This document shows, one piece after another, positions 3,496 to 29,020 of a stretch of 40,209 nt of DNA; positions within the stretch are counted from its first letter, which is position 1, and every line of letters begins with the position of its first letter. Under the pieces are notes generated by a model, which worked only from the letters and a program-made list of their open reading frames with translations, ran no database searches and had not been told where the DNA came from. The stretch is from a virus, in IMG/VR virus record IMGVR_UViG_3300027365_000030, positions 1 to 40,209 of that record; one strand, 5' to 3'. The position numbers and the translations under genes were made by a program.

Positions 3496-3573
3496 ATCTC
3501 GGTCGTAATAATTGGCTAATACGTCGGTCTCCAAAACCGTAAGATTGTGGTTCGAGTCCACACCGGGGTGCCA
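3496..3573 (+). tRNA. tRNA-Trp (anticodon CCA)
   Basis: I folded this by eye. The acceptor ATCTCGG (3496-3502) pairs with CCGGGGT (3563-3569) with two G-U pairs. A D-arm GTA/TAC encloses a loop containing TTGG. The anticodon stem TCGGT/ACCGT carries a terminal T-T mismatch and a CTCCAAA loop, so the anticodon is CCA (Trp, UGG). The T-arm is TGTGG-TTCGAGT-CCACA. CCA is encoded at 3571-3573. The total is 78 bases. It is the only tRNA I could fold in this window. Confidence 0.85.
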
Positions 3574-17015: not shown

Positions 17016-17999
17016 ATGAGTGACCTCGATCAGATTATTCGTATCACGCTAACACGAGCTTCCCAGCCGGTTCAAACTGCTAGTTTCCAGATTCCATTGA
17101 TTCTAGCAACATTTACTAACTTTGCTGAGCGTACTCGTGTATACGAGAGCATGACTCAGGTGGCAGAAGACTTCGATAGCACTGATAGCGTTTATGTTAT
17201 TGCTTCCAAGCTCTTTGGTCAATCTGGCGTTGGTGCTGTTCCTCCGAGCATTGTTGTTGGTCGTCGTCAAGTTGACTCGATCACCGCAAGCATCGGAACT
17301 GTAGCAAATAACACAGAGTACAGTGTCACAATTAATGGCACCACTTACACCATCACTTCTGACGCTGATGCTTCTGCTCTTGAAATTGTAGCAGCCCTTG
17401 ATACTGCTGTCACTGATGTAGAGATTAATTTCACTGACAACCTTGATGGCACTTTCAGTGTAGCTCCGGTAACTCCGGGTGAAGGTTGGAGCTTCTCCGC
17501 TTCTTCCAATATCACTGTTGGTACTACCACTGCTACCGAAACTTGGGTAGAAGCTCTTGATGCTGTAACTGAAGACAACGACAGTTGGTATCTGCTTATT
17601 GCAGAGACTCACGTTGCTGCTGATCAAGAAGCACTGTCAGATGCTATTGGCGCTGTTCGTAAGATTTACGGTGTGTCTACTGCTGACGCCACTGCAACAG
17701 CTACCAGCACTACCGACATTGGTGCAATTCTTAGCGCTAAGTCTGCTGGTCGTACTTATGGTGTTTACCTCCCAACTGCTAACTCGGATTACCCGGAAGC
17801 TGCTTGGGCGGGTGCTCAACTTGCGTACACTCCCGGCTCGAACGACTGGGACTTCAAGCGTGTAAACGGAGTTACTGTTTCTAAGCTTAGCGCCACCGCT
17901 AAAAACAATCTTCGTGAGAAGAACTACAACTTCTACACTGAAGTTGGTGGTGTAAACATTTTCCAAGACGGTAACATGTTTGATGGTCTACCAATCGAT
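17016..17999 (+). CDS. Tail sheath protein, exon 1 (DUF3383-type)
   Basis: The first 328 codons of the contractile sheath; joined to exon 2 (19110-19415) they give 429 aa. The start is ATG 17016 after AAGAGGA. The N-terminus (IIRITLTRASQPVQTASFQIPLILA) and the segment GRTYGVYLP...YPEAAWAGAQLAYTPGSNDWDFKRVNGVTVSKLSATAKNNLREKNYNFYTEVGGVNIF are characteristic of the DUF3383 sheath family. A Thr/Ser-rich middle (residues about 95-185) is a surface domain. Unspliced, the frame would run past 17999 to a TGA at 18015 and lose the conserved C-terminus, so splicing is needed for a working sheath. The predicted junction is ...LPID / EQIVIDWLYARLQ. Confidence 0.9.
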
Positions 18000-19109
18000 T
18001 TGAAAAAAGTCGCCTGAGACCGGAAGGTCTCTTGAAAACTCCTTTAATTGCTGGAAACCCGCGAAGACGTATTGACTACAACGTAGAGCCTGTTCTAAAA
18101 TGATGGCTCAAGCGTGAAAGTTTGAAAACAATATGTTATGTGGCAATCAGCAGCCAAGCCCGAAAGGGAAGGTTCAACGACTAGGCAGTGATGCCGTAGC
18201 CTCAAGTGAGGCGAAATGGGGAGCCCCTAAGTATTGTTTATACCGGGTGAAGATATAGTCTGGTCTTACGCGAAAGCGTAAGTGGCGAAAAGGGAGAAAC
18301 AAATGAATTACGAAAAACTTTACTTTGCGTTTATTGAAAAATATAGGAATCAGCATTTCGAACAAGGTGAATATACCGAATCTCACCATATTGTTCCTCG
18401 CCATGCAGGAGGCGATGATTCCAAAGATAATCTAATTGTTCTGTCTTATCGACAACACTGTTTTGCTCACCGACTTTTATGGAAAGCTTATAAGAAAGCC
18501 TCAGATTACAAAGCTTGGATTTTAATGAGCAGGCAAGAGGTGGACAAAGTTATTGCTACACACAAAGCCTTGGGTAAAAGAAACGTTGAAACAGGACATT
18601 TAGCAAGAATAAGAAAGCTTGCTAATACTCCTTCAAGGCAAAAGAAGCTAGCAGAGCTGAACCACCACAAGGTTGAAACAGGACTTCTAGATGAGTACAG
18701 GCTGCTTTCTAATGCAGCATGGAGGGGTTGTTCACACACTGAAGAATTTAAAGAAAGAAAATCTCTTCAAATGAAAAAGTGGGCAACAGAAAACCAAGAA
18801 CACTATGCCTCGATGATTGAAAAGTCTGTGGCCTTGAAGAAAGAAAATTCAAAATCTCTCTCCGAGGAAGTAATTAAAAACGCGCAAAGAAATGAAGAGT
18901 ACCTGCACAAAACCTCTTCTAAAAGTTTAAATTTATTTGTATCACCCGAAGGTTTAGAGTTTCAAAGCCCGATATATGCTGCCAAATATTATTCAGAAGA
19001 TTTGGACTATTGGGTGGTAGAGAACTGGTGCAAACGGGCTCAACATGGTTGGTCTCGGAAGCCTAAACCTTAGCAGTGCGGGATTAACGACCCCGCATGA
19101 ACATAAACG
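18000..19109 (+). mobile_element. Group I intron in the tail sheath gene, with internal HNH gene
   Basis: The intron is a self-splicing ribozyme of about 1110 bases. P1 forms between exon CGAT (17996-17999) and GTCG (18009-18012), with the required U-G pair at the splice site after T17999. A perfect GAGACC-GGAA-GGTCTC hairpin (18016-18031) follows as P2. The core AATCAGCAGCCAAGCCCGAA...GGTTCAACGACTA (18145-18183) is a classic P4-P5-P6/P7 segment, with P7 GACTA (18179-18183) pairing TAGTC (18256-18260). P8 has GCCTC/GAGGC, and P9 is CTTACGC-GAAA-GCGTAAG (18265-18282). A terminal hairpin GCGGG/CCCGC follows the HNH gene. The last base G19109 fits the rule that group I introns end in G. Splicing restores a continuous frame. 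Confidence 0.92.
18303..19073 (+). CDS. Intron-encoded HNH homing endonuclease
   Basis: The product is 256 aa. ATG 18303 follows GGGAG (18291-18295); the in-frame ATG at 18282 lies in the P9 stem and has no ribosome site. The HNH core is at residues about 22-62: YTESHHIVPRHAGG, then NLIVLSYRQHCFAHRLLWKAY. The next 130 residues are helical and basic with repeats of a KLAxx..R..K type. The enzyme should cut intron-less sheath genes and spread the intron. It is related to the free-standing enzyme at 1840 (same MNYEK start and HNH spacing) but lacks the obvious NUMOD3 repeats. Its position after P9, outside the ribozyme core, is normal. Confidence 0.9.
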   Translation: MNYEKLYFAFIEKYRNQHFEQGEYTESHHIVPRHAGGDDSKDNLIVLSYRQHCFAHRLLWKAYKKASDYKAWILMSRQEVDKVIATHKALGKRNVETGHLARIRKLANTPSRQKKLAELNHHKVETGLLDEYRLLSNAAWRGCSHTEEFKERKSLQMKKWATENQEHYASMIEKSVALKKENSKSLSEEVIKNAQRNEEYLHKTSSKSLNLFVSPEGLEFQSPIYAAKYYSEDLDYWVVENWCKRAQHGWSRKPKP

Positions 19110-19415
19110 GAACAGATTGTCATCGACTGGCTGTATGCCCGCCTGCAAGAAAGCATTTATTTCCGTCTGATTAATAGCTTGAAGATTCCGATGACCAATC
19201 CTGGTCTGGCTATTATTGAGAATGAAATCCGTACCGTTCTTTCTCAGGCAGAAGCTAACGGCGCTATTGATCGTGGCTGGAGCGTCTCTGTCCCTGACGT
19301 ACTATCCATTCCAGAAAACCTTCGTGCTCAGCGTACTGCTGGCGTATTTGTCTTCCGTGCCCGGTTGGCAGGGAGTATCCGCCGCATTAACATCGAAGGC
19401 TATCTTTCGGTGTAA
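19110..19415 (+). CDS. Tail sheath protein, exon 2 (C-terminal part)
   Basis: The final 102 codons of the sheath gene, read in the frame set by exon 1 through GAA CAG ATT GTC. The product is EQIVIDWLYARLQESIYFRLINSLKI...GYLSV. The part DWLYARLQESIYFRL is the conserved start of the C-terminal domain of DUF3383 sheaths, and SIRRINIEGYLSV is the usual final strand that connects neighbouring subunits. An internal ATG at 19191 could in principle start a short product but has no ribosome site. The junction placement is predicted from P1 pairing and protein continuity. Confidence 0.88.
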   Translation, partial: EQIVIDWLYARLQESIYFRLINSLKIPMTNPGLAIIENEIRTVLSQAEANGAIDRGWSVSVPDVLSIPENLRAQRTAGVFVFRARLAGSIRRINIEGYLSV

Positions 19416-19489: not shown

Positions 19490-20383
19490 GTGGCTAAAGA
19501 AATTGATGTGAAAATAGGTGATAAGTTCAACCGCTGGGAAGTGATCTCGGAAATATTCTATAAGACCTTCCCTAGCGGAGCTAAGGCTAAATTCATTAAC
19601 TGTCGATGCGAATGCGGAACCTGCTCCACACTACGACTGGGGACTTTAACTAGTCCAACCAAGCCCAGCCTTTCTTGTGGATGCGTCCGCAGGGAAGCGA
19701 TGGGTAAGACACGAAAGTTTCCCCAAATAGGTGAAGTTTTTGAAAAGTTGACAGTCATCTCGGAAGGCTACCGTAAGAATGTTAGGTCTTGGGTGACCGT
19801 CCAATGCTCTTGTGGCGGTGAAGCATTTGATGTAAGGGTGGACCATCTCCGGAACGGCAACACTGGTTCATGTGGATGTTTACAAAGAGAGGCGGTTAGC
19901 CAAGCCCATACAACTCACGGGATGAGTGGAACTTCTGCATATAACTCTTGGCAAGCTATGAAAGACCGCTGCAACAACCCAAACAACATCCGTTGGGACA
20001 GGTATGGAGGGCGTGGTATTGCGTATCCTACAGAGTGGGAGACTTTCCTAGGATTTTGGGAGGATATGTCTGAAGGTTGGTTTGAAGGTGCCGATATTGA
20101 CAGAATCAAGTTCGACGAGTCTTATTCAAAAGATAATTGTCGGTGGGTTAATAGAGATGTCGGCAATCACAACAAATCTAAATCTGAAGGGACATCTTCT
20201 TACAAGGGTGTTTATTACGACTCTGCAAGAGATAGATGGACGGCTCGGCTCAATAGAAATTTTGAGATTTTACTCCAGAAAAGATTTTACACCGAATTCG
20301 AGGCGGCTCTTGCTTATGACAACATGTCAGAGGAAGTTTATGGAGATCGTCCAAATCAAACAAACCGGGATGATCCCGCATGA
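19490..20383 (+). CDS. HNH homing endonuclease with zinc ribbons and AP2 domain
   Basis: The start is GTG 19490, after AAGGAG (19479-19484), with an ATG-less N-terminus MAKEIDVKIGDKFNRW; the product is 297 aa. Residues about 42-66 and 105-132 are two zinc modules (CRCECG...SCGC and CSCGG...SCGC) similar to those in the enzyme at 7671. Residues about 150-225 carry the AP2-linked HNH nuclease region (YNSWQAMKDRCNNPNN, YGGRGI, DRIKFDESYSKDNCRWV). The C-terminal 60 residues form an AP2 DNA-binding domain (SSYKGVYYDSARDRWTARL, FEAALAYDNMSEEVYG). It separates sheath from tube, genes that are normally adjacent, so it is an inserted free-standing mobile gene. Confidence 0.87.
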   Translation: MAKEIDVKIGDKFNRWEVISEIFYKTFPSGAKAKFINCRCECGTCSTLRLGTLTSPTKPSLSCGCVRREAMGKTRKFPQIGEVFEKLTVISEGYRKNVRSWVTVQCSCGGEAFDVRVDHLRNGNTGSCGCLQREAVSQAHTTHGMSGTSAYNSWQAMKDRCNNPNNIRWDRYGGRGIAYPTEWETFLGFWEDMSEGWFEGADIDRIKFDESYSKDNCRWVNRDVGNHNKSKSEGTSSYKGVYYDSARDRWTARLNRNFEILLQKRFYTEFEAALAYDNMSEEVYGDRPNQTNRDDPA

Positions 20384-20396
20384 AAAGGTAACCTAA

Positions 20397-20918
20397 ATGG
20401 CTGATATTGTTATCGGTAACTACTCGCCTGAGTCTGTTACCATTGTTATTTCTAAAGGAAGTTTTGTTCACCAAGTGACGGGTTTTGCCGAAGGTACTTT
20501 CATCTCAGCAACTCGCCTAGTAGCCGCATCAGATCCGTATATCGGCTCAGATATTACTGGCGGTCGTGTCAAGCGTCGTAACCGCTCTATGAACGTCACC
20601 ATTAGCTTGCACCAGTATGCTGCTTCCAATACGGTTTTGCAACAGTTGCAACGGGCCGATGAAGAGGCGGATGGCAACGAATGGGTCTTCTCTTGTCAAA
20701 TCAAAGATAATAGCGGACAAACACTGTTCTTCTCGAATCAAACCATTATTGCTACTACCCCAGACCTGACTCTGAGCAGCACTACTGAGATGCGAGACTG
20801 GACATTCTTCATGTTCAACGCAGACAATTTCATTGGCGGCAATACCCCGATGGATGACGCTGCTGTTGCTGCTGTTGAAGCTGTTGGTGGTCAAGTAGAC
20901 GCTCGCTGGCGTCTGTAA
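20397..20918 (+). CDS. Major tail tube protein, probable (DUF3277-like)
   Basis: The 173-aa protein is first of three tandem relatives (with 20973 and 21482). Shared elements are YSPESVTIVI at the start, GxAEGTFISATR, KRRNRSMNVTISLHQ, IKDNSGQTLFFS and the closing DWTFFMFNADNFIGGN. This is how inner tail-tube proteins of DUF3277-type myoviruses read. It is the best candidate for the main tube subunit because it lies next to the sheath, has the strongest codon bias of the three, and is followed by a clear terminator (20924). The final DARWRL differs from its relatives. Confidence 0.8.
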   Translation: MADIVIGNYSPESVTIVISKGSFVHQVTGFAEGTFISATRLVAASDPYIGSDITGGRVKRRNRSMNVTISLHQYAASNTVLQQLQRADEEADGNEWVFSCQIKDNSGQTLFFSNQTIIATTPDLTLSSTTEMRDWTFFMFNADNFIGGNTPMDDAAVAAVEAVGGQVDARWRL

Positions 20919-20923
20919 TGGAG

Positions 20924-20949
20924 AGGGAGACTTGCTCTCCCTTTTCTTT
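20924..20949 (+). terminator. Rho-independent terminator after the tube gene
   Basis: AGGGAGA (20924-20930) pairs with TCTCCCT (20936-20942) over a CTTGC loop, followed by TTTCTTT. This is the cleanest terminator within the tail operon. It should lower expression of the two tube-like genes and everything after, unless late transcription is antiterminated. Confidence 0.7.
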
Positions 20950-20972
20950 AATCTAATAAGACGGAGAGTTTT

Positions 20973-21473
20973 GTGGAAATCGCAAACTATATTCCTGAAG
21001 ATGTGACAATCACCGTTGCGGGACTTCTGTCTCTAAATGGCTATGCTGATGGAACTTTCGTCTCTATTAGAAAAGATACAGTTCCTTTCGCTAGTAGACG
21101 AACAGCAGACAGCGTTGTAAGCCGCTTGTACACAAAAGACACAACTTATACGGTTGAGGTTACTTTGTATAGCGGAAGCTCAAGTAATGATGCTCTAACA
21201 AAGCTCTATCTTGCCGACGAAATCACGCAGATGGCCAAAATGCCTATTATGATTAAGGACAGCAGCGGAACATCTTTATTCTTTTCAGCAACTGCTTGGA
21301 TTGAAGACATTCCCCCGTTGACACTTTCTAATAGATTTGAAACTCGTACTTGGGTATTTAAGGCAACACAAGCGGCGCTCAATGTTGGTGGTAATGAGGA
21401 AAGAGGTAGTACGATTGATTCTATTGTTTCAATTGCCACCGCTGCTCTTCCTTCACTTAATGGAATCTTCTGA
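20973..21473 (+). CDS. Second tail tube-like protein (paralogue)
   Basis: The 166-aa protein starts at GTG 20973 after CGGAGAG (20961-20967). It shares with the tube protein at 20397 the pattern YIPEDVTITV, GYADGTFVSIRK, a run of charged and beta residues, IKDSSGTSLFFS and FETRTWVFKATQAALNVGGN. The C-terminus (TIDSIVSIATAALPSLNGIF) is hydrophobic and different from the first copy. Its place after the terminator suggests fewer copies per virion, for example a tube-initiator, tail-tip or distal ring adaptor. Such roles are known for tube-fold proteins in other tails; here they are inference. Confidence 0.7.
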   Translation: MEIANYIPEDVTITVAGLLSLNGYADGTFVSIRKDTVPFASRRTADSVVSRLYTKDTTYTVEVTLYSGSSSNDALTKLYLADEITQMAKMPIMIKDSSGTSLFFSATAWIEDIPPLTLSNRFETRTWVFKATQAALNVGGNEERGSTIDSIVSIATAALPSLNGIF

Positions 21474-21481
21474 GGTGGTGA

Positions 21482-21955
21482 ATGGCTGATATTGTAACGT
21501 ATTCCCCATCTTCCGTAACACTGGTAATTGATGACTTCCAAATCGTCGGATGGGACAGTATTTCGATTATCAAGACAAGTCCATCATTTATCACTGTCCC
21601 CGGAATTAGGGGAAAACACACGAGGGTTAGAAATCCAGATAAGTCTTGCACTATTCAGTTTGAGCTTATTCAAACAAGCTCTGCAAATGATATTCTCTCA
21701 GCCATCCATTCAATGGATATTGAGATGGGTACAGGCAAGCTTAGTGTGATGCTGAAGGATTCATCTGGTACGAGTGTGTTTAGCAGCAGTGATGCATATA
21801 TTACCAACTTCCCAGATGCCACTTTTAGTGGACAATTTGAAACTCGCACTTGGAGTATCTTTTGTCAAAGCGTCAGAGACTTTAAGGTTGGTGGCAACAC
21901 CAGACCAAAAACTGTACTTGATAGCCTATTTGATAGTGTGTCGAGTATTTTTTAG
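21482..21955 (+). CDS. Third tail tube-like protein (paralogue)
   Basis: The 157-aa protein has a GAGGTGG ribosome site that overlaps the previous stop codon region, so it is coupled to the copy at 20973. It keeps the family pattern: YSPSSVTLVIDDFQIVGWDSISIIKT, DKSCTIQFELIQ, LKDSSGTSVFSS and FETRTWSIFCQSVRDFKVGGN. Its end, TVLDSLFDSVSSIF, resembles the second copy's end (SIATAALPSLNGIF) more than the first, so copies two and three are closer to each other. It precedes the tail chaperone. A role in the tube-baseplate junction is possible. Confidence 0.7.
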   Translation: MADIVTYSPSSVTLVIDDFQIVGWDSISIIKTSPSFITVPGIRGKHTRVRNPDKSCTIQFELIQTSSANDILSAIHSMDIEMGTGKLSVMLKDSSGTSVFSSSDAYITNFPDATFSGQFETRTWSIFCQSVRDFKVGGNTRPKTVLDSLFDSVSSIF

Positions 21956-21978: not shown

Positions 21979-22296
21979 ATGGCTAGTAAAGCTGGGATCA
22001 TGGCTTTGCCGCAAACTACCATCGAACTTGATGGTGAAACTTATCTTGTAGATGCAATGCCCGCAACCGTCTCTCTTGAAGTTCAACAAGAACTTATGAA
22101 GACTGGCGGTGTGCCGTCTGTAGAGCTTATCAAGCGTATTATCATTGGCAGTGTTTCTTATAAGAATAAGAATATTGATAAAAACTCTTTTGACATTATC
22201 TTTGCTCGCCGGACTACCCACCTGTATGAGCTGACCAATCAGATTATTCAGTGGAACATGCCTGACCTTTTTACGGAAAGCGGTACAGACGAGTAA
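21979..22296 (+). CDS. Tail assembly chaperone, short form (gpG-like)
   Basis: The 105-aa product has a CCGGAGGA ribosome site. It lies between tube and tape-measure genes, where long-tailed phages encode the chaperone that coats the tape measure. It begins MASKAGIMALPQTTIELDGETYLV and contains ATVSLEVQQELMKTG and SVELIKRIIIGSVS, the compact helical pattern of gpG-type proteins. It stops at TAA 22294. An open region without a start codon follows in the -1 frame, and a slippery T-run with a downstream stem lies just before the stop, so a minor fraction should be extended (see 22267-22315). Confidence 0.78.
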   Translation: MASKAGIMALPQTTIELDGETYLVDAMPATVSLEVQQELMKTGGVPSVELIKRIIIGSVSYKNKNIDKNSFDIIFARRTTHLYELTNQIIQWNMPDLFTESGTDE

Positions 22297-22315
22297 TAAA
22301 AGACAAATCTGTACC
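22267..22315 (+). promoter_or_regulatory. Programmed -1 frameshift signal (slippery T-run plus stem-loop)
   Basis: Zero-frame codons CTT TTT ACG (22267-22275) contain five T in a row (22268-22272), so tRNA-Phe on TTT can slip back one base onto TTT. Nine bases downstream GGTACAGA (22282-22289) pairs perfectly with TCTGTACC (22308-22315). The loop holds the zero-frame stop codon. A -1 frame stop at 22263 limits the slip to this window. This is the gpG/gpGT arrangement. Confidence 0.75.
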
Positions 22316-22556
22316 AACCGTCAAGTCAAAAGTCGAGAAAGAGATTGAAGAAAACTTTTCTATCCCTTGGCAAATTTATCGTGTGGCTACACACAAGCTT
22401 GGCGGATTACATCTTATAGGTGAGTTCTCTACATGCAGAACACTTAAAGACCTCTACGACATGCTTGAAGTGATCGATGTTTATGACACATTACAAGAAG
22501 AGGCTAAGAAAGCTGCTGAAGCAGAGGCTGAGGCTAAGAAAAGATTAACAAGATGA
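22272..22556 (+). CDS. Frameshift extension of the tail chaperone (gpGT-like T domain)
   Basis: This -1 frame region is open from 22266 to TGA 22554-22556 and has no start codon with a ribosome site. After a slip at the T-run it continues the chaperone as YGKRYRRVIKDK..., adding 94 residues to the first 98 (total about 192 aa). It contains IEENFSIPWQIYRVATHKLGG and LKDLYDMLEVIDVYDTLQEEA, the helical T-domain type that in lambda binds the tube protein. It ends in a Lys/Ala/Glu-rich helix. Its existence as a fusion is predicted from sequence only. Confidence 0.75.
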   Translation, partial: YGKRYRRVIKDKSVPTVKSKVEKEIEENFSIPWQIYRVATHKLGGLHLIGEFSTCRTLKDLYDMLEVIDVYDTLQEEAKKAAEAEAEAKKRLTR

Positions 22557-22568
22557 AGGTAATCTAGC

Positions 22569-24461
22569 GTGGAAATTGCCAAGTATACAGTTGGAGTAGA
22601 TTTTAATCTTAAGTGGAAGCAGCTAGATAAGAACCTAAAACTTCTTGAAAAGAAACTAGCTAAATTCTCTGCTGGGAAACTTGCTTTCTCAATTGATCGC
22701 TTTGTTGTTGATCAGCGTAAGTTAAACATTGTCCTCGGTAATGCTCTAGACCGAGCCAGCATGACAACTGCTTTCTCAATTGATCGCTTTGTTGTTGATC
22801 AAGCAAGCCTTACCCGTCAAATGACAAGAGCTATGAAGAATGCTGCTAGAGCGGCAAGCTCCCAAGCAGATATCACCCCAAACGTAAATGGTCGCGGTGG
22901 TATTAGCACAAGACAGGCGGGTGTAGCTGGTGGTGTAGGTGGATTTACCGCTCGTGCTTATATGCCGCTTGTTGCTCTTGCTGGTGGCGGATATGGTCTT
23001 GGTGCTCTTAATCGTCGTAACCAAGAGATTGTTTCGGCTCAGCTACAGACTTCAGCCATTGTTCAACAAGCTGGCGGTAATGCTGCTCAGGGAACAGAGG
23101 CTTTTGATTGGCTTAGGGCACAAGGGGAACGAGTAGGTTTCAACTGGCTTGAGGCTATTCCTGATTACAACAAACTGATTTCCGGCCTGGCTGGTGCGGG
23201 AATGACAGTTGAGCAAAGTCAGGGAGTTTTTCAAGGCTTCTCTGAATTGGCTCGTGTTAATAAGCTTGACCGCACTTCTCAGAATCGTTTGTTTCGGGCG
23301 CTGAGTCAAGTGGCTGGTAAGAACCAGTTGATGTCAGAAGAACTTACCGGACAGATTGCTGAAGCTCTTCCTGGGGGTGTTGCTGTCTTTGCTGAAGCAT
23401 ACCAACGTAAGCTTGCTGCGGAGGGACGTGGGGGCGGCAAAACTGGAAGCGAGGCAATTCAAGAACTTCGCAGCGCAATGGAGCGGCGTGAGGTCAAAGG
23501 TGATATTCTTCTGTATGCTGGGCAACGTGCCGGGGAGATGGCACAACCCGGTCTGACTGCGGCACAAAAAGCGTCACAAGCTGAGCAAGCAAGATTTCAG
23601 AATGCTTACAACCAATTAGCAATGGTGGCAAGTAATGCTGGTGTTGAAAGTGGTTTTGCTCGCCTGTTTAGAGCAATGGCCGATGGTGCCCGAGAGGCTG
23701 GCCCTCTGGTTGAATCATTAGCCAAAGGCTTTGATGAGATAACTAAATATGTCTCCGTAGCCATGCTTAGCTTTCAGTCACTGCAAAGATTCTTTCAGGG
23801 TCGAGATAGCTTCCTCGGTGACAAACTCTTCCCAGATAAGGAGACAAGAAGTAAAGCTCTTCTTTGGTTGGAATCTACTAAACAAGCTTTTACAGAAGTC
23901 AACACCCTGTTGGGGAACTCTATTACTGGTTGGCAACAGCTTTTGGGAACTTTAGAATCTAGTTCCGTACTAGATCGCCTTATGACTGCAATGTCTACCA
24001 TCTCAAACAGTGCAGGGGCATTGAATGCTTTAGTTGAGGGTGATTTTGGAAAAGCTGGAGAGATGGCTGCTGAAGCAGGTAAGAGGTATGCCAACACGCT
24101 GACGGCCCCAGGAAGGGCAGGCGTAAATGCTGCTCTGAGGGGAGGTACAAGGCTGCTGGAAGCTATTGATCCGAGAGTAGATGTTGGGTCAACCGTACCA
24201 CCACAACTTAGTGGGTTCAGTGTAACAGAAGATTGGATTACTCAACAAAAAATACAAAGACAGTTAGCAGCCCAGCAAGCAGCTAAAGAGGGTTATCCGA
24301 ATCCAGTAGGGATTTTCCCGATGGACAAGCAGGCTGGACAAGTTACTGCAACTTTCAATATTTACGATGCAACCAATCCAGATAAGGTTGGGGAGGTTGT
24401 TCGTATTAAGCTTGAAGACATGTTTAAGGCCGTTAATGCCGAAAACCCAGAATTAGAATAA
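22569..24461 (+). CDS. Tail tape measure protein
   Basis: The 630-aa product starts at GTG 22569 after GAAGGTAA. Tape measure proteins fix tail length at about 0.15 nm per residue, which would predict a tail near 95 nm. Residues about 150-270 match the phage tape-measure N-terminal domain (AIVQQAGGNAAQGTEAFDWL, GVFQGFSELARVNKLD, MSEELTGQIAEALPGGVAVF). A hydrophobic Gly-rich segment near residue 130 could insert in a membrane at DNA ejection. The N-terminal 75 residues contain FSIDRFVVDQ twice, encoded by an exact 33-bp repeat. The last 60 residues (ATFNIYDATNPDKVGEVVRIKLEDMFKAV) are a typical C-terminus for this class. Confidence 0.9.
   Translation: MEIAKYTVGVDFNLKWKQLDKNLKLLEKKLAKFSAGKLAFSIDRFVVDQRKLNIVLGNALDRASMTTAFSIDRFVVDQASLTRQMTRAMKNAARAASSQADITPNVNGRGGISTRQAGVAGGVGGFTARAYMPLVALAGGGYGLGALNRRNQEIVSAQLQTSAIVQQAGGNAAQGTEAFDWLRAQGERVGFNWLEAIPDYNKLISGLAGAGMTVEQSQGVFQGFSELARVNKLDRTSQNRLFRALSQVAGKNQLMSEELTGQIAEALPGGVAVFAEAYQRKLAAEGRGGGKTGSEAIQELRSAMERREVKGDILLYAGQRAGEMAQPGLTAAQKASQAEQARFQNAYNQLAMVASNAGVESGFARLFRAMADGAREAGPLVESLAKGFDEITKYVSVAMLSFQSLQRFFQGRDSFLGDKLFPDKETRSKALLWLESTKQAFTEVNTLLGNSITGWQQLLGTLESSSVLDRLMTAMSTISNSAGALNALVEGDFGKAGEMAAEAGKRYANTLTAPGRAGVNAALRGGTRLLEAIDPRVDVGSTVPPQLSGFSVTEDWITQQKIQRQLAAQQAAKEGYPNPVGIFPMDKQAGQVTATFNIYDATNPDKVGEVVRIKLEDMFKAVNAENPELE
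22682..22801 (+). repeat. 33-bp exact tandem-type repeat in the tape measure gene
   Basis: A 33-bp sequence beginning TGCTTTCTCAATTGATCG occurs exactly at 22682-22714 and 22769-22801. The spacing is 87 bases (29 codons), so the reading frame is kept and FSIDRFVVDQ is encoded twice. Flanking DNA is not repeated, which suggests recent copying or strong selection on the peptide. Confidence 0.9.
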
Positions 24462-27574: not shown

Positions 27575-29020
27575 ATGGCAGGTATTACACCTGAAGGCTT
27601 GGTGATTAAACGCCTGTCTGAAGTTTTAGCTGACAATAGAGCCAAGGCTGTCGAGCTTTTTCAAGACCTCGTTTCTGTTGGTGATGTAGTAGACACGTCT
27701 GCCAGTTCAGCACTTGGACGACTAATTGCACTTGCCGCTCCGGGAGAGGCTGATCTTTGGGAGGCTGTACAAGAAGTATACTCGGCTTTTGATCCAAACT
27801 CAGCAACAGGTATTGCTCTTGATAATCTCGTAGCTCTTGGTGGAATCACTCGCTTTGCTAACACATTCACCACAGCACAGGCTATCTTCACGGGCAATAA
27901 TGGAACTCTCATTCCCTCTGGAAGTGTTGTTTCTAGTGACACAACCGGACAAAGCTTTAATGTTGTAGCGAGTGTGGCGTTGTCTCCTTCTCTTGCTTCT
28001 GGTGTCACTATTACAGTACCAACTGTTGCTAGTAGCACGTTATACACCATCACTTACTCTCGGATTACCAGTTCAAACACTGTCAACTACACAAGTGGTG
28101 TTGGAGCAACAGCAGCGAGCATTCTCGCAGGACTGAAAGCAGAGATTGACGCTAATCATCCTCAATTGATTGCTACTGTTGTTGGAACGACTCTGGAAAT
28201 TGATCTTGATGATATTTTCCAAGTAACTTCTTTCAGCACATCAGCTAACCTTGGTATCACTAAGGTTGATAAGATTGGTGATTTGATTGCTCAAGAATAT
28301 GGTCCGATTGAGCAAGCTCCAAATACAATCACGTCCATTTCTACTCCTGTTCTTGGCTGGGATAGTGTAAACAACCCGATCAGTGCCGTAGCTGGGCGAT
28401 ATGTTGAAACAGACGAAGAGCTTCGTGAACGCTTCCGTGTAAGTAAGTTTGAACGTGCCTCTAACATTCTTGAAGCATTGTATTCTGCTCTGATTAACCT
28501 TGACACTGTAGAGCAAGTGGTTATCTATGAGAATGATACAGATGTGACGGATGCTAATGGTATTCCCGCTCACAGTTTTATGCCAATTGTTCTTGGTGGT
28601 ATTTCCACGAACATTGCACAAAGTATATGGGAGAATAAACCTCTTGGTATTCGTAGTTATGGGAACACATCTGTAACGATCTACGATAGTCAGGGCTTCT
28701 CACACGATATTGGATTTGAGCGTCCAAATCCTGTAACCATTTATATTGATTTGGACATTACCACCAACTCCGAGTTTCCTCAAGATGGTGAACAAGCGAT
28801 TAAAGATGCTATTGCTGTATATATGAAAGCACAGTTCGGCATTGGTGAAGATGTTGTTTACAGCCGTCTCTATACGCCCATCAACTCTGTTCCGGGACAT
28901 CAAGTAAATAGCCTAACTATTGGAACATCCCCAAGTCCTGTCGGAACCACAAATATCCCCATCGCTTTCAATGAGTTGTTTTCTCTTGATCCGAATAACA
29001 TCGTAATCACTGTATCTTAA
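27575..29020 (+). CDS. Baseplate wedge protein gpJ-like
   Basis: The 481-aa protein is of the P2 gpJ/T4 gp6 class that forms the baseplate wedge core. Visible marks: N-terminal ITPEGLVIKRLSEVLADNRAKAVELFQD, LGRLIALAAPGEADLWEAVQEVYSAFDPNSATGIALDNLVALGGI, and the central AVAGRYVETDEELRERFRVSKFERASNILEALYSALINLDTVEQVVIYENDTD typical of baseplate J proteins. A Ser/Thr-rich insert (residues about 110-215) is an extra surface domain. The C-terminus (QVNSLTIGTSPSPVGTTNIPIAFNELFSLDPNNIVITVS) ends in the family's usual strand. Confidence 0.88.
   Translation: MAGITPEGLVIKRLSEVLADNRAKAVELFQDLVSVGDVVDTSASSALGRLIALAAPGEADLWEAVQEVYSAFDPNSATGIALDNLVALGGITRFANTFTTAQAIFTGNNGTLIPSGSVVSSDTTGQSFNVVASVALSPSLASGVTITVPTVASSTLYTITYSRITSSNTVNYTSGVGATAASILAGLKAEIDANHPQLIATVVGTTLEIDLDDIFQVTSFSTSANLGITKVDKIGDLIAQEYGPIEQAPNTITSISTPVLGWDSVNNPISAVAGRYVETDEELRERFRVSKFERASNILEALYSALINLDTVEQVVIYENDTDVTDANGIPAHSFMPIVLGGISTNIAQSIWENKPLGIRSYGNTSVTIYDSQGFSHDIGFERPNPVTIYIDLDITTNSEFPQDGEQAIKDAIAVYMKAQFGIGEDVVYSRLYTPINSVPGHQVNSLTIGTSPSPVGTTNIPIAFNELFSLDPNNIVITVS

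Follow-up and report, generated by a model that had tools for sequence, protein, structure and literature searches.

In phage lambda, a short tail assembly chaperone, gpG, and a minor -1 fusion, gpGT, come from a position between the tail tube and tape measure genes, and the slip site is a two-tRNA heptamer, G_GGA_AAG. The locus described here has the same arrangement, with a minor -1 fusion that is predicted, but it differs from lambda in its slip site and the sequences are unrelated at this level. Frameshifts of this sort are well known among tailed phages. Closer relatives are found in the Vandenendeviridae, for which a conserved -1 frameshift at an invariant GTTTTT has been reported in the same gene and suggested for the Andersonviridae as well (PMC12846349, December 2025; annotation of Moogle, PMC4319497). 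Members such as Adele, PaP1 and KIL1 share with our locus the homologous gene and its place, a frame -1 extension of about 80 aa and a T run near the end of the N-terminal chaperone frame (TAC-N), and the frameshift in this gene is therefore already known. In contrast to the invariant GTTTTT, our locus carries CTTTTT, and its clade also has several canonical heptamers and a covarying hairpin; neither the hairpin nor the slip-site turnover was found in the Vandenendeviridae paper, in whose text no mention of RNA secondary structure (hairpin or pseudoknot) was found. The group to which our locus belongs is related to the Vandenendeviridae and has a wider range of motifs. Two more distant systems are of use for the slip itself. 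Gene 10 of T7 likewise shifts at a Phe codon, on G_GUUUUC with imperfect P-site pairing, but it is a capsid gene with a stimulator more than 200 nt downstream (PMC5009743). The U_UUY frameshifts of insertion sequences combine a one-tRNA tetramer with a downstream structure, as our locus does, but they occur in transposase genes and the stimulators tested were the IS3 pseudoknot and IS911 elements; among E. coli tetramers, U_UUC and U_UUU rank next after A_AAG and require downstream structure (PMC4066793).

The chaperone gene in its tail module

The window, i.e., the whole 40.2-kb virus contig that was analysed, holds the tail module of a contractile-tailed phage, with sheath, three tube paralogues, chaperone, tape measure and baseplate genes. 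The short chaperone (TAC-N, zero frame, 105 aa) occupies 21979-22296 on the + strand, as do all features of the frameshift region given below. Directly 5' are the three tandem tail tube paralogues (20397-21955, + strand; phrog_280, E 2.5e-29 to 8e-36), whose homologues are annotated as tail tube proteins in vB_PsaM_M1, and directly 3' is the tape measure protein gene (22569-24461, + strand; phrog_5255, E 6.5e-17). The position between tube and tape measure, put forward in the initial annotation, is borne out by these coordinates and by the order tube, chaperone, tape measure that is common to the relatives.

The short protein is Phage_TAC_15-like and matches phrog_1613 (E 6.5e-5), as do the short chaperones of 46 of 48 relatives. 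The Pfam model Phage_TAC_15 is found in all 48 at E <= 0.01 (best 2e-8), and the window's own protein scores 21.9 bits, 0.1 bit short of the cut-off of 22. On these profile matches, the short form is, at family level, a solid homologue of tail assembly chaperones. Protein comparison with isolated phages gave a single weak match for the short chaperone, whereas the extension and the sheath did retrieve relatives. The fold evidence adds little, since the best solved match of the chaperone structure model, 5ir0, is weak (E 0.05, TM about 0.61) and a profile search for a relative of solved structure found none; 5ir0 is ORF19 of a Vibrio cholerae PICI-like element, and this satellite protein may be a relative of the chaperone. 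For the model of the frame -1 extension, the sole matches are homologues in related phages, none with a known function.

Several other features of the window were observed. The tail sheath gene (17016-19415) is split by a group I intron (Rfam RF00028, 17992-18282, 79.9 bits) followed by an HNH-endonuclease-like ORF (18282-19073), and a C-terminal portion resembling sheath seems to carry on in the ORF at 19179-19415. A second endonuclease-like ORF (19490-20383) lies between the sheath and the first tube gene; it resembles HNH/AP2-type homing enzymes by eye and had no match among NCBIfam models. KIL1 carries an ORF with a putative homing endonuclease annotation (L183:2980-3330) in the interval from its third tube gene to its chaperone, so the tail region seems to be a repeated target of homing genes. 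The baseplate wedge gene (27575-29017) has 88-92% identity to contigs whose other tail proteins mostly reach only 30-48%, which suggests a recent recombination of the wedge gene alone. Within the tape measure gene, a near-exact direct repeat of ~33 nt (TGCTTTCTCAATTGATCGCTTTGTTGTTGATCA) at 22680-22802 encodes AFSIDRFVVDQ twice, and a weak tRNA match was seen at 3500-3565 (30.9 bits against an Rfam gathering score of 29).

The slip site and its turnover among relatives

Close IMG/VR relatives were too similar for a test of the stem, and relatives were therefore retrieved by scans with baseplate and tube proteins as bait. An automatic search past the third tube gene yielded 143 chaperone regions, or 97 distinct syntenic loci, and slip classes and start codons were counted in 61 dereplicated representatives. 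The conservation of frame, slip site and stem in these relatives, which is the strongest evidence, supports the reading proposed in the initial annotation, and the locus very probably directs a -1 programmed ribosomal frameshift like that of lambda gpG/gpGT, from which a longer tail assembly chaperone is made.

The chaperone frame overlaps the frame -1 stretch by 31 nt, and the overlap reads GAC CTT TTT ACG GAA AGC GGT ACA GAC GAG TAA TAA. The slip site within it, C_CTT_TTT (22266-22272), departs from the canonical two-tRNA heptamer X_XXY_YYZ in that TTT alone re-pairs perfectly, through the tetramer T_TTT (22269-22272), exactly as the initial annotation had it. A T_TTT tetramer alone is a weak site and a common one: the 12 tail genes contain 38 T_TTY tetramers in 3063 codons, and against this frequency the slip site by itself is not significant.

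A slippery site is nevertheless kept within the overlap at 97/97 loci, including L021, where it is a T_TTT_TTC further upstream, and the real chaperone of KIL1. Tetramer-type sites, at which the A-site codon alone re-pairs, account for 44 of the 61 representatives (N_GTT_TTT, N_CTT_TTT, N_GTT_TTC, N_ATT_TTC and N_GGT_TTC), the majority of loci having N[G/C]TT_TTT with re-pairing by the tRNA-Phe tetramer T_TTY alone. The other 17/61 carry a canonical heptamer (C_CCA_AAC, G_GGA_AAC, G_GGT_TTT, C_CCT_TTG, T_TTT_TTN or A_AAT_TTT), several lineages having swapped the T run for one of these. On a tree of the fusion proteins, the motif changed at least 14 times and the tetramer or heptamer class at least six times, counts that are approximate because the tree includes the junction residues. 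The amino acids of the junction vary and its slipperiness stays.

A coding frame, a slip site, a stem and the conservation of each can be read directly from the window and its relatives, and we infer the frameshift event itself, its rate, the positions of the tRNAs and the roles of the two chaperone forms. Ribosomes translating the 105-aa short chaperone would arrive at CTT TTT with the P site occupied by tRNA-Leu and the A site by tRNA-Phe, and there the hairpin 9 nt downstream would delay them. On some of these passages the mRNA would slip by one base, so that tRNA-Phe re-pairs perfectly on TTT at 22269-22271 while tRNA-Leu stays mispaired on CCT. Decoding in frame -1 (TAC GGA AAG CGG) would then run past the zero-frame stops and yield a fusion protein some 192 aa long. 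If the two forms act as lambda gpG and gpGT do (PMC5009743), binding of the tape measure protein would fall to the short form, and the minor long form would recruit tube subunits to that protein through its C-terminal domain.

The initial annotation guessed at a slip by one tRNA, and this probably holds. In vB_PsaM_M1, C_CCA_AAC begins at the exact base aligned to the window's C_CTT_TTT, and this shared register makes the A site the most likely place for the window's TTT to slip. All four bases occur at the first position of the heptamer in the relatives, with at least 15 changes on the tree; such freedom indicates that P-site re-pairing at that base is not selected and fits a slip by tRNA-Phe alone. 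A variant that departs from this mechanism in the slip step only is rather unlikely, though it is the strongest competitor. It would have both tRNAs slip on C_CTT_TTT, with tRNA-Leu pairing imperfectly on CCT, or tRNA-Phe slip from the P site with an empty A site. G_GUUUUC of T7 gene 10, with its imperfect P-site pairing, is a precedent (PMC5009743), and CTT and CCT agree at the first and third base. Against it, not only is the first base free but codon 1 of the heptamer may be GTT, CTT, ATT or GGT, which argues that P-site re-pairing is not selected; the register of the canonical heptamers, moreover, places TTT in the A site.

Coding in frame -1 beyond the chaperone stop

The open stretch in frame -1 (22266-22556), whose coordinates and those of the chaperone proved exact on rechecking the initial annotation, is open in frame -1 in all relatives and matches phrog_4625 (E 1.4e-14), a family of unknown function. 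From 22272 on, it would form the C-terminal domain of the predicted long chaperone. At 96 of the 97 distinct loci the chaperone is lengthened in frame -1 by 61-90 aa, and the gain in frame +1 is below 20 aa except at two loci (36 and 58 aa). The one locus that does not fit in frame -1 is the putative homing endonuclease ORF of KIL1, which had been miscalled as the chaperone; the true KIL1 chaperone fits the pattern. Past the stop, substitutions in 16 disjoint pairs of relatives are distributed as 116/61/365 over frame -1 codon positions 1/2/3, and dN/dS is 0-0.14 in these pairs; by this measure the extension is evolving under purifying selection. In the overlap 3' of the slip site there are 10 differences in 405 sites, far below either flank. 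No difference from the window is seen at 22264-22333 in five close IMG/VR contigs, and their differences further on lie nearly all at frame -1 third positions. Taken over the relatives, the extension is thus conserved and coding, overlaps the short frame and is without a start of its own.

It is very unlikely that this stretch is instead a gene in its own right, with translation beginning at a start within it or by re-initiation past the chaperone stop. The records of M1, PaP1, phiK7A1 and KIL1 do annotate it so, and the description of the stretch as start-less in the initial annotation stands for the first 39 codons only, codon 40 being an in-frame GTG (22383) that could, as a start, give a truncated product of 57 aa. 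A separate gene is at odds, however, with the dearth of starts in the relatives, 52/61 of which have no start codon within the first 20 aa of the extension, with the conservation of the frame -1 protein from the slip site onward (F-x-G-x-R-Y-R-R), upstream of any start, and with the lack of frame -1 stops in every overlap, and it was rejected on these grounds; it would also leave the slippery sites unexplained.

The hairpin past the slip site

After a spacer of 9 nt (22273-22281), the 5' arm GGTACAGA (22282-22289) pairs with the 3' arm TCTGTACC (22308-22315) around a loop of 18 nt (22290-22307), and ACGG (22273-22276) with CCGT (22318-22321) may lengthen the hairpin according to fold prediction. 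The perfect 8-bp stem nine bases past the T run, with the stop in its loop, is as first described, and the zero-frame stop is doubled (TAA TAA, 22294-22299). A perfect 8-bp stem 4-12 nt downstream occurs at one of the 38 T_TTY sites of the 12 tail genes, namely the window's slip site. The folding energy of the 60 nt past the slip site is -13.7 kcal/mol, compared with -6.1 +/- 2.2 when shuffled (z -3.4, 0/200).

Among the relatives, the 5' and 3' segments of the same locus fold at a mean of -17.7 kcal/mol, and segments swapped between loci at -11.9 (sd 0.38, 20000 permutations). Pairs were also counted for an 11-pair helix in 54 sequences under a plain MAFFT alignment, where 75.8% of the helix cells are paired against 65.0 +/- 1.0 in shuffled data, and 57 cells have changed on both sides where 24.0 +/- 3.4 are expected. 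When the partner is shifted by one to three columns, pairing falls to 26-39%. At the column pair 25-58, 15 sequences have A-U and another 15 have U-A. About a quarter of the helix cells in this alignment are unpaired, and RNAalifold found no consensus structure in it, a null result put down to broken cells and loops of differing length; 11% of the representatives have no contiguous stem with a score of at least 6. By these counts the downstream hairpin covaries, and a stimulatory role is predicted for it. The initial annotation had named, as evidence that would speak against a frameshift, relatives with a conserved protein and no conserved slip site or stem; the opposite was seen, every locus having a slip site and the stems showing compensatory changes.

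Phage operons often have hairpins near their stop codons, and this one might instead control tape measure translation, termination or mRNA decay. This is highly improbable, and was rejected, because the tape measure start is about 250 nt away and the stem begins 5-9 nt past the slip site in most relatives (the spacer likewise being mostly 5-9 nt) despite a variable loop length; nor does a T run follow 3' of the hairpin. RNA polymerase slippage on the T run that most relatives have, giving mRNAs of altered length, is extremely improbable and was rejected as well, as the run has only five T's, shorter than is usual for such slippage, relatives with C_CCA_AAC or G_GGA_AAC have no long run at that place, and no covarying hairpin at ribosomal spacing would be needed.

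Slip site and stem may trade off in evolution, in a lineage that would rely on a one-tRNA slip (T_TTY) and a strong covarying hairpin, although this sequence-based proposal is tentative and somewhat doubtful. The mean stem score is 6.4 with pyrimidine A-site heptamers (G_GGT_TTT, T_TTT_TTY, A_AAT_TTT), 8.5 with tetramers and 8.2 with other heptamers, and the weaker stems of the first class (Mann-Whitney p 0.004) come from an exploratory, post hoc comparison uncorrected for relatedness. If true, the relatives would form a natural series in which the parts change but the ratio of chaperone forms stays. The known chaperone frameshift would be extended to a large, mostly uncultured sister lineage, with covariation evidence for its hairpin, and records in which the extension figures as a hypothetical gene of its own would be corrected. 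The slip sites and stems of some hundred natural variants, all at the same place in one gene, offer a means to measure the weight that bacterial ribosomes give to slip-site strength relative to structure.
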